Assembly (NCBI GenBank): GCA_016839665.1
Contig: JAEOTU010000119.1
Location: 1 to 7,585, forward strand
From: Candidatus Hodarchaeota archaeon
GTDB lineage: Archaea; Asgardarchaeota; Heimdallarchaeia; Hodarchaeales; Hodarchaeaceae
Direction of reading: 5' to 3'
Length of the DNA stretch: 7,585 nt
Position 1 is the first letter of the stretch. Each line of letters opens with the position of its first letter. The position numbers and the translations under genes were made by a program. Shown piece after piece: positions 5,671 through 7,577 of this stretch. The notes beneath the pieces are model-generated. The model saw only the letters and a program-made list of their open reading frames with translations, had not been told where the DNA came from and searched no databases.

Positions 5671-6780
5671 TTACCTCACAGGTTGGAATGAGAAAATCTT
5701 CTCTATGTCTATATTATAAAAATCCTCATACTTCTGAAGAGAAACTTTAGATCTAAAAGTACAACAAGCACTTTGATCTAAGTTCTCATGATCCAGTCTT
5801 TGTCCAAAAAATCCTAGTTGAATTGGTCTAATTACGGGGAGAATTGATTTTTTTTCCAAGATTTCCAGTGATTCTAAAGACATTGTTTCTTCATTAAAAT
5901 CAAAACAAGTAGGAGATACAATAGTTGGGATTCGTTGTTCCTTGGAGATATTTTGGGAAATATGCTCACAATACATCTGACAGTATAAACACAGTGAGTG
6001 ATTGGTTTTGAGGGAATCTAATAAAGATTGTATTGAAATAATGGCGATAGGATGACCGAATTGTGATTGAGTTTTGCTGATAAATTCTTCTTCAGAGGGT
6101 TTACCCGTCTTAAAGAAAATAGGTACAATATTTATTCCTCTCTTTTTCATTAACCAAGCTGCGAATATAGAGTTGTAATTAGGACGAATCAAGGCGATAG
6201 CAGTTCCCTGAGACTGAGATGGTATTCCATCCATACCCCGAAAAACTTTTGTATAGACAAAGGCTAATGAACCCCGAATATCCAGAAAAATTTCGAAATC
6301 TGGGTTTTCGAGATCTACTCTAATATCTTCAATTCCAGACGACAAAATTGTTGAACCTAATTTGCTTGCAATATCCATTGAGGAGAAAGGATGTTTTCCT
6401 TCTCTACGTACCCGAACAGCAAAGCTATTATTAGGTTGAATATATGCCGTAGCATCCCTTAACCCTCCAGAGATAATAGTCCTTTCTGTAGCTTCAACAA
6501 TTAGCGCAGGACTTACAGATGAAACTCCACTGATTGAATTAACAATGTCATGAGCTGGAATTTCGAGATCACTGTAAGATTCAGATAATAAAAGCAAACG
6601 ATCCCGAAAATCAATAATTTTAAAGGTTCCGTATTGCTTTAGAAGAGTTTTTATATTATGTCGAAGGTGGCCCACCATTCTTCGACGAGTTTGACGACTT
6701 TTTATACCAAACTCACCCCCAAAACGTACTAAAATAACACGTTTATTAATTAAAGCAGAATCATTATCAATTGACGCCAT
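5671..6780 (-). CDS. ThiI-like tRNA sulfurtransferase homologue with degenerate PP-loop
   Basis: Classical ThiI makes 4-thiouridine at tRNA position 8. Here the N-terminal ferredoxin-like part (about 12-65, VRFGGEFGIKSRQTRRRM) and THUMP RNA-binding domain (about 85-185; FAVRVRREGKHPF, VDLENPDFEIFLDIRG) are well kept. Next, FRGMDGIPSQSQGTAIALI corresponds to the family's GPGGLP...GKVLALL. Where ThiI has the ATP-binding SGGIDSPVAAWLMMKRG, this protein has RPNYNSIFAAWLMKKRG (199-215), so SGGxD is lost. The later TGESLGQVASQ block is also absent. Cysteines that bind an Fe-S cluster in methanogen ThiI appear retained as C264, C267 (CLYC) and C339/C340. There is no rhodanese domain, as usual in archaea. 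ATG 6780 (369 aa) is preferred to TTG 6873, whose extra 31 residues are not family-like. It may act as an RNA-binding or Fe-S protein rather than a normal ATP-dependent enzyme. Confidence 0.88.
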   Translation of the reverse strand: MASIDNDSALINKRVILVRFGGEFGIKSRQTRRRMVGHLRHNIKTLLKQYGTFKIIDFRDRLLLLSESYSDLEIPAHDIVNSISGVSSVSPALIVEATERTIISGGLRDATAYIQPNNSFAVRVRREGKHPFSSMDIASKLGSTILSSGIEDIRVDLENPDFEIFLDIRGSLAFVYTKVFRGMDGIPSQSQGTAIALIRPNYNSIFAAWLMKKRGINIVPIFFKTGKPSEEEFISKTQSQFGHPIAIISIQSLLDSLKTNHSLCLYCQMYCEHISQNISKEQRIPTIVSPTCFDFNEETMSLESLEILEKKSILPVIRPIQLGFFGQRLDHENLDQSACCTFRSKVSLQKYEDFYNIDIEKIFSFQPVR

Positions 6781-6890
6781 ATCAAAGACTTTCTCACAAG
6801 CCGTGCATGATTTTAGCAAATTAATGGCTGTATTCCAGATTCGTCCTTTTAGGTTACATAAACCCCAAAACAACGTGCGATTCAGAGTAA

Positions 6891-6900
6891 CTATAAAATT
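6891..6900 (-). promoter_or_regulatory. Possible TATA box of the ThiI-like gene
   Basis: AATTTTATAG on the minus strand lies in the 186-bp gap after the Mak16-like gene. Initiation near 6870 would leave about 90 bases of leader before ATG 6780, longer than for the other genes here. It would also make the upstream TTG 6873 unlikely to be translated from this promoter. Transcription from the Mak16-like promoter is also possible. Confidence 0.35.
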
Positions 6901-6966
6901 TCATTGCTCAGCTCATACTTGTCAGGTCTCATCATTGTCGCATCGTTGTTCTATCATAATTTGGGG

Positions 6967-7413
6967 TTATTTTTCCTCTGTATCGTCCCCAACTTCCTCA
7001 TCAAATAATTCTTCGTCTTCGTCTGCCAACTCTTCAGCCGTTCTAATTGTTTCCGCTACATTAAATTGTTGTTCAAACCTACGCCAAATCGCGGTTTTTA
7101 GGTTTTCATTTAGATTCTTAATCGCTTTATCAACTACTTTTCTTGCGTCCTCTCGATCCTCTGGTAACTCAGTAAAGCCCCATGTTGAAGATGGAGGTGC
7201 CTCTGGATCTTTTTCAATGAAATATACCAAACTTTCCTGTTGCTGAAACGCATAAAATTCAGGTTGAATAAGGGGGCAATCAGTATACTGGCAAGTTCCT
7301 GTAACTGTAAAAAGATGATTACAGCGCATTTTTAGAGAGGTTGATGCTGATTTAAAGGCACACTGTCCATTAGAAAGGTAGCGCCAAGTAGTGATTAACT
7401 GTGATGATTCCAT
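6967..7413 (-). CDS. Mak16/eL28-like zinc-binding ribosome-assembly protein homologue
   Basis: The first 120 residues resemble eukaryotic Mak16, a nucleolar 60S assembly factor related to ribosomal protein eL28. The pattern is W10 then QCAFK (C18), RCNHLFTVTGTC (C31, C41) and TDCPL (C46). It matches Mak16's CSFK, FCRNEYNLTGLC and SCPLANS, with all four zinc cysteines in place. Then come Y54A55 and SLVYFIEK (like the GVCYLYMK stretch), W78, and a helix ending LKTAIWRRFEQQF (105-117), like Mak16's yWPRFIRHKCKQRF. The tail (127-148) is almost all Glu/Asp, also a Mak16 trait. At 148 residues it is about half the eukaryotic length. It could bind rRNA in the large subunit or assist its assembly. 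ATG 7413 lies about 41 bp after a good TATA box. The similarity was recognised by eye and no search was run. Confidence 0.8.
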   Translation of the reverse strand: MESSQLITTWRYLSNGQCAFKSASTSLKMRCNHLFTVTGTCQYTDCPLIQPEFYAFQQQESLVYFIEKDPEAPPSSTWGFTELPEDREDARKVVDKAIKNLNENLKTAIWRRFEQQFNVAETIRTAEELADEDEELFDEEVGDDTEEK

Positions 7414-7473: not shown

Positions 7474-7577
7474 AGCCGCTGGTGGGAATTTCATATAGGA
7501 TTCAGCAGAATCTCATATCTTGAACCCACGACCAACAGATTACAAGTCTGTCGCTCTACCAACTAAGCCACAGCGGC
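7474..7577 (-). tRNA. tRNA-Thr (UGU) with intron in the T-loop
   Basis: The acceptor stem is GCCGCTG with CAGCGGC (7571-7577 and 7475-7481), seven perfect pairs, with discriminator U at 7474 as is usual in archaeal tRNA-Thr. The D arm contains TTAGTTGGTAGAGC. The anticodon stem ACAGA/TCTGT encloses CTTGTAA, giving anticodon UGU (threonine ACA codons). The T-stem GTGGG/CCCAC is intact, but its loop is broken by a 31-nt insertion at 7488-7518. Removing it restores the normal loop TTCAAGT. The 3' CCA is not encoded, unlike in the initiator tRNA gene here. The promoter lies outside the window. Confidence 0.93.
7488..7518 (-). other. 31-nt BHB intron at noncanonical position 59/60 of tRNA-Thr
   Basis: T-loop bases UUCA pair with UGAA near the intron's 3' end, giving a 4-bp central helix with 3-nt bulges AGA and AUU. 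The intron folds further by UAU/AUA and a 5-bp GAUUC/GAAUC stem closed by a UGCU loop. Cleavage after the second base of each bulge removes exactly 31 nt and joins G59 to U60, restoring a standard 7-base T-loop. Confidence 0.87.

Follow-up and report, generated by a model that had tools for sequence, protein, structure and literature searches.

A ThiI-like THUMP protein lacking the PP-loop as the probable tRNA-recognising half of a split U8-tRNA sulfurase in Asgard archaea

The stretch of DNA analysed here (the window; 7,585 nucleotides of contig JAEOTU010000119.1 from a Candidatus Hodarchaeota archaeon) encodes a ThiI-like protein that retains the N-terminal ferredoxin-like domain (NFLD) and the THUMP domain of ThiI and has lost the ATP-binding motifs of the PP-loop (PP) domain. 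We consider it probable (roughly 0.68) that this protein is the tRNA-recognising, catalytically dead THUMP subunit of a split, two-protein U8-tRNA sulfurase, the active half of which would be a separate PP-loop-only protein. With this reading, an odd "broken ThiI" becomes a two-protein enzyme that can be tested.

The window protein is a ThiI homologue, as the original prediction had proposed, since matches to ThiI_fer, THUMP and the ThiI PP domain (the last at 8.6e-5, residues 190-320) all exceed the Pfam cut-offs. Both the NFLD and the THUMP domain, the latter already recognised in that prediction, are present, and the predicted structure, a single-chain model, fits ThiI as far as residue 369. 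The top-ranked ThiI structures found by Foldseek with this model are identical to those from VIA. Alignment with other ThiI sequences also confirms the two proposed losses: RPNYNS stands in the place of the PP-loop SGGxDS, and SPTCFDFNEETMS stands in the place of the second ATP loop TGE..GQ..SQ. The archaeal CxxC motif and third cysteine column are present, judging by sequence alone. Against the NCBIfam ThiI model TIGR00342, residues 16-237 score 122.6 bits, below the cut-off of 264.5. Because the PP-loop motif is missing, the protein is classed as a ThiI variant and not as a ThiI enzyme.

Loss of the ATP motifs is conserved in the family. Alignment A1 has 61 rows, the window protein and 60 of 74 listed homologues; it omits the window's own entry (P0001), shorter or partial sequences (P0029, P0031, P0049, P0060 and P0066-P0070) and the canonical ThiI sequences P0071-P0074. 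At the PP-loop site, position 199 is R or K and position 204 is S in 61/61 rows, position 200 is P and position 201 is N or H in 60/61, and position 203 is N in 59/61, so that RPNYNS is conserved among close homologues as [RK]P[NH]xNS with few exceptions; SGGxD occurs in 0/61. The second ATP block reads SPTcF...E, with T291, F293 and E298 each in 61/61. C264, C267, C339 and C340, which had been predicted to be retained, are each found in 61/61 rows, and C271 in 60/61. As 61 aligned homologues share these changes and keep the cysteines, the changes reflect a family trait and no assembly error.

The window gene is under purifying selection. Compared with L001 (87% identity), its ratio of nonsynonymous to synonymous substitution rates (dN/dS) is 0.21, with 0.15 for the NFLD and THUMP parts and 0.26 for the rest, and the values for seven neighbouring genes are 0.08-0.24; a closer pair, G003-G008, which differs by few changes, has 0.31. 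In addition, the gene is flanked by AMMECR1 and L28e in 11/11 genomes (the comparison covered G001-G011 and left out G012), and AMMECR1 is followed by a Gpn GTPase and a small membrane protein in 10/11, the exception being G010. The shared changes, the dN/dS of 0.21 and the kept gene place speak against decay or an assembly artefact, in agreement with the original claim that the gene is not decaying; the missing active-site motifs and the G003-G008 value are what such an explanation could call upon, and we find it scarcely credible.

The candidate partner is found in relatives of the source organism. No fused ThiI was found in related Hodarchaeales genomes (n=12), and 11/12 of them encode a PP-loop-only ThiI domain as a protein of its own, with SGGxDS and CxxC plus C intact, the twelfth being a 1.4-Mb partial genome. 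The relatives at 87% and 42% identity, for example, lack fused ThiI and have a stand-alone PP-loop domain with SGGIDS and CxxC plus CC intact. The proposed partner matches PRK08349 (NF006222), a family of stand-alone ThiI PP-loop domains named "hypothetical protein", at 7.6e-47 with 159.7 bits, below the cut-off of 251. QueC was tried as an identity for the partner and rejected after profile comparison (NCBIfam). PP-only proteins were aligned as A3, with 6 locus proteins and 51 from the best 120 of 1257 matches.

This pairing extends across the Asgard phylum, of which 227 genomes were searched. The matches were sorted by place among the matches listed and then checked. Sorting placed 182/227 genomes: 80 pairs, 10 with the THUMP protein alone, 56 with a fused gene, 4 more with a fused gene plus a second PP protein, and 32 with no more than a separate PP protein, a class due in part to a THUMP match lying below the matches listed. 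G189, fused by its sequence, and G069, which looks like a fused gene broken across two contig ends, were then moved to the fused class. This leaves 88 genomes in which the THUMP protein has no good PP domain; a separate PP protein accompanies it in 78 of them, with an open frame shorter than 310 codons in 76/78. A short second PP match occurs in only 3/60 genomes first classed as fused (G170, G187 and G222), two of these matches beginning at most 4 bases from a contig end; four other fused-class genomes have a second long PP protein. Counted by best score per genome (cut-offs 1e-15 and 1e-20), 159 of the 227 have both domains, 39 neither, 17 PP alone and 12 THUMP alone, where fused genes count as "both" by construction. 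Eighteen genomes (G109-G128 minus G112 and G116) have no strong ThiI PP or ThiI-type THUMP match at these cut-offs; some of them retain weak PF02568 matches (1e-4 to 1e-10), and the whole function may have been lost there.

Read by letter, SxGxDS is found in 0/39 pseudo proteins (38 from genomes and the window protein), 32/32 PP-only proteins, 4/4 PP copies without THUMP and 31/31 fused proteins; in the remaining pairs, no match stronger than 1.4e-12 lies at the THUMP place. The replacement of the PP-loop varies by group, being RPNxNS in Hodarchaeales and VGRLND, RGSLED, SGEEED, DGSLAS and others elsewhere.

The pairing has at least two origins. In the NFLD and THUMP tree, the pseudo proteins of G180-G183 are nested in a fused ThiI group with support of 100, and a single clade of all pseudo proteins is rejected by the approximately unbiased (AU) test (p-AU 0.00024), which rules out a single origin; a single clade of the other 26 rows is not rejected (p 0.323). 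These trees come from quick, short searches and have many weak forks, and the PP tree by itself does not require more than one origin of the PP-only proteins. Some genomes seem to preserve stages of a duplication followed by reciprocal loss. In each of G181 and G183, the PP domain is intact in one copy, where THUMP gives no match, and degraded in the other, which has THUMP. A PP copy in which THUMP gives no match accompanies a fused copy in G198 and G199, and a PP copy of this type also occurs in G189 and G211. Such a course is an expected route to a heterodimer, because in the ThiI dimer THUMP and the active site work in trans. Two long PP-domain proteins without a THUMP match are perhaps other stages of the split: one of 438 residues with a ThiI_fer match (L141:524-1840(+), G084) and one of 392 residues (L139:502-1680(-), G167). 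Overall, the Asgard genomes display both end states and apparent intermediates.

In ThiI homodimers, the NFLD and THUMP of one subunit grip the acceptor end of the tRNA and offer U8 to the PP-loop active site of the other. A mechanism can be proposed from the ThiI of T. maritima, which, according to the available part of the source, dimerises chiefly via its PPase domains, with the NFLD and THUMP of one subunit holding the RNA and U8 lying at the PPase site of the other (PMC4041423). If a THUMP protein with the PPase fold minus its ATP site joined a PPase-only partner, one functional half of this dimer would be restored. The NFLD, THUMP and pseudo-PP protein would capture the CCA end of the tRNA, and its pseudo-PP fold would dimerise with the separate PP-loop-only protein, which would bind ATP and adenylate U8, while the CxxC plus C cluster site of the latter would serve sulfur transfer. 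We infer the complex from co-occurrence; the presence of the partner in this organism, 4-thiouridine at U8 (s4U8) as the product, and cluster binding by the retained cysteines, be it structural or for sulfur supply, are likewise inferred.

These cysteines deserve separate consideration. The original prediction had placed them at the iron-sulfur (Fe-S) ligand sites of methanogen ThiI. C264, C267 and CC do fall on the cluster columns of active ThiI in an alignment of all forms, whereas equivalence with the M. maripaludis enzyme depends on the common pattern of CxxC and a third cysteine, as given in the available part of the source (PMC5372739). A profile comparison sets CLYC of the window protein against CLFC of the intact PP-loop subunit (E 0.0011, at a probability of only 20). 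All three cluster columns are kept in 27/39 pseudo proteins. In the 31 genomes for which the sequences of both partners are available, CxxC is found in both partners in 21, in the active partner only in 6, in neither in 4 and in the pseudo protein only in 0. Retention of cysteines in a dead subunit suggests that the site has some job, with a cluster or zinc. Split pairs without CxxC in either partner are L021/L073 and L063 (G014) and L074-L081 (G021, G022 and G036), where the cluster seems to have been lost jointly from both halves.

The original prediction had favoured a repurposed tRNA-binding Fe-S protein. Such a protein, with iron-sulfur or zinc, would act independently of the PP-only protein, in a role such as tRNA chaperone, sensor or redox protein, and would accommodate the loss of ATP motifs beside invariant cysteines, the new conserved motif [RK]P[NH]xNS / SPTcF...E, and the five cysteines as against three in active ThiI. 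However, an intact, separate PP-loop ThiI domain exists in relatives, is complementary in presence and is rare beside fused ThiI, and the pairing recurs in the Asgard phylum, having originated at least two times. Division of one enzyme therefore explains this complementary pairing better than a new role for one half, and we regard repurposing as unlikely. A remodelled pseudo-PP pocket with its own enzymatic activity on tRNA and another ligand might be suggested by S204, R318 and P319, which correspond to the invariant S20, R150 and P151 of the active PP-loop partner and, like T291, F293 and E298, are kept in 61/61 rows. Yet the loop replacement differs among clades, and some clades have a far shorter domain (about 314-321 residues for the whole protein), as expected if it is dead, which makes this idea quite improbable. 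Finally, the PP-only protein could serve a different pathway (7-deazaguanine synthesis, for instance) and co-occur by chance; several public records label it 7-cyano-7-deazaguanine synthase, and the genome counts are not independent, but we hold this to be very improbable.

Several observations weigh against the split-sulfurase reading itself. It draws on co-occurrence in genomes that are related to one another, so that the counts are not independent. The THUMP and PP-only genes are not adjacent, lying 0.79 Mb apart in G009 and 0.90 Mb in G011. No separate PP protein was found in 10/88 split-type genomes, and by best score 17/227 match PP but not THUMP; these unpaired genomes may be incomplete. 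Moreover, the 6/31 pairs with cysteines in the active partner only indicate that the split model does not require the kept cysteines.

The split enzyme proposed here would differ from known systems in several respects. Relative to ThiI/TtuI, the tRNA uracil 4-sulfurtransferase (2C5S, 4KR6, 4KR7), the window protein has lost the PP-loop and second ATP loop and falls below the TIGR00342 cut-off, and the activity is proposed to have split off to another protein. Its nearest solved relative is PH1313 of Pyrococcus horikoshii (1VBK). The structure of PH1313 was solved in 2005 without a known function. Similarly to PH1313, the window protein has the NFLD, THUMP and a PP domain without SGGxDS; unlike PH1313, it has 369 rather than 307 residues and its PP domain is not shortened. 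Among the best 120 of 239 N-terminal relatives of PH1313, S[GTSD]GxDS is absent in 92, and relatives among the matches listed include Pyrococcus, Thermococcus, Palaeococcus, Woesearchaeota and Theionarchaea. No CxxC was found in the C-terminal parts of the relatives from P. furiosus, P. abyssi and Pyrococcus sp. NA2. A 2023 review, in its available part, describes PH1313 as a protein of 307 residues with several ThiI residues missing, a smaller PP domain and unconfirmed activity (PMC9957541), and the present analysis suggests a role for such proteins. Tentatively, Asgard archaea may have divided ThiI on more than one occasion to give an asymmetric two-protein enzyme whose dead subunit, in several lineages, keeps its own Fe-S cluster while losing ATP binding; the enzyme would then have two clusters, a catalytic one and another for structure or sulfur supply, and PH1313 would be the THUMP subunit of an enzyme of this kind.

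Pairs of one active and one dead subunit are also known in eukaryotes. The U34 thiolase Ctu1/Ctu2 (Ncs6/Ncs2) has one active and one dead PP-loop subunit and is believed to descend from an archaeal homodimer; human Ctu2, the dead subunit, has lost the cluster cysteines that the window-type dead subunit keeps, and the available part of the source mentions no THUMP domain (PMC10067955). An intact paralogue beside a dead one, as in Ctu1/Ctu2, is what 11/12 Hodarchaeales relatives have. In the tRNA deaminase ADAT2/ADAT3, the inactive subunit adds a tRNA-binding ferredoxin-like domain, according to the available part of the source (PMC8216470), and the catalytic fold and chemistry are unrelated to those of the window protein. 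The Asgard pairing bears on how homodimeric archaeal enzymes give rise to such active and dead pairs, and would provide a case in which cluster binding and ATP use are separated within one fold. In literature searches whose coverage was without preprints and most subscription papers, neither a split ThiI or split 4-thiouridine synthetase (in the available parts of the sources) nor a paper on ThiI in Asgard tRNA modification was found. As far as these searches reach, the complementary Asgard pairing, its repeated origin and the form without ATP binding but with cluster positions are new.

Table 1. Coordinates of the gene and its features in the window.
Feature	Position	Strand	Basis or details
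ThiI-like THUMP protein gene without PP-loop	5671..6780	(-)	369 aa + stop, ATG start
NFLD, residues 15-90	6511..6738	(-)	Pfam ThiI_fer 3.7e-9
THUMP domain, residues 111-177	6250..6450	(-)	Pfam THUMP 6.2e-13
Pseudo-PP domain, residues 190-369, PP-type fold without ATP motifs	5674..6213	(-)	Pfam, model fit and alignment
RPNYNS, residues 199-204, replacing PP-loop SGGxDS	6169..6186	(-)	Alignment
SPTCFDFNEETMSL, residues 289-302, replacing second ATP loop TGE..GQ..SQ	5875..5916	(-)	Alignment
CLYCQMYC: C264, C267, C271, cluster-type CxxC and further Cys	5968..5991	(-)	Alignment
C339-C340, third cluster-type position	5761..5766	(-)	Alignment

C/D small RNAs exist in archaea, and the gap before the THUMP gene (window 6876-6941 (-)) gives weak matches to C/D-box snoRNAs (SNORD45, E 0.43; SNORD64, E 0.79), below the gathering scores and probably due to chance. 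The L28e-like ribosomal protein, of a eukaryote-type family, lies at 6967-7413 (-) and scores 29.1 bits, below the Pfam cut-off of 33.2. In addition, a tRNA-Thr(TGT) at 7474-7577 (-) has an intron-like insert of about 28-32 bases in the T-loop; the region scores 29.1 against the Rfam tRNA threshold of 29.0, and ARAGORN misses it when intact and calls it tRNA-Thr (tgt) after such a piece is cut out.
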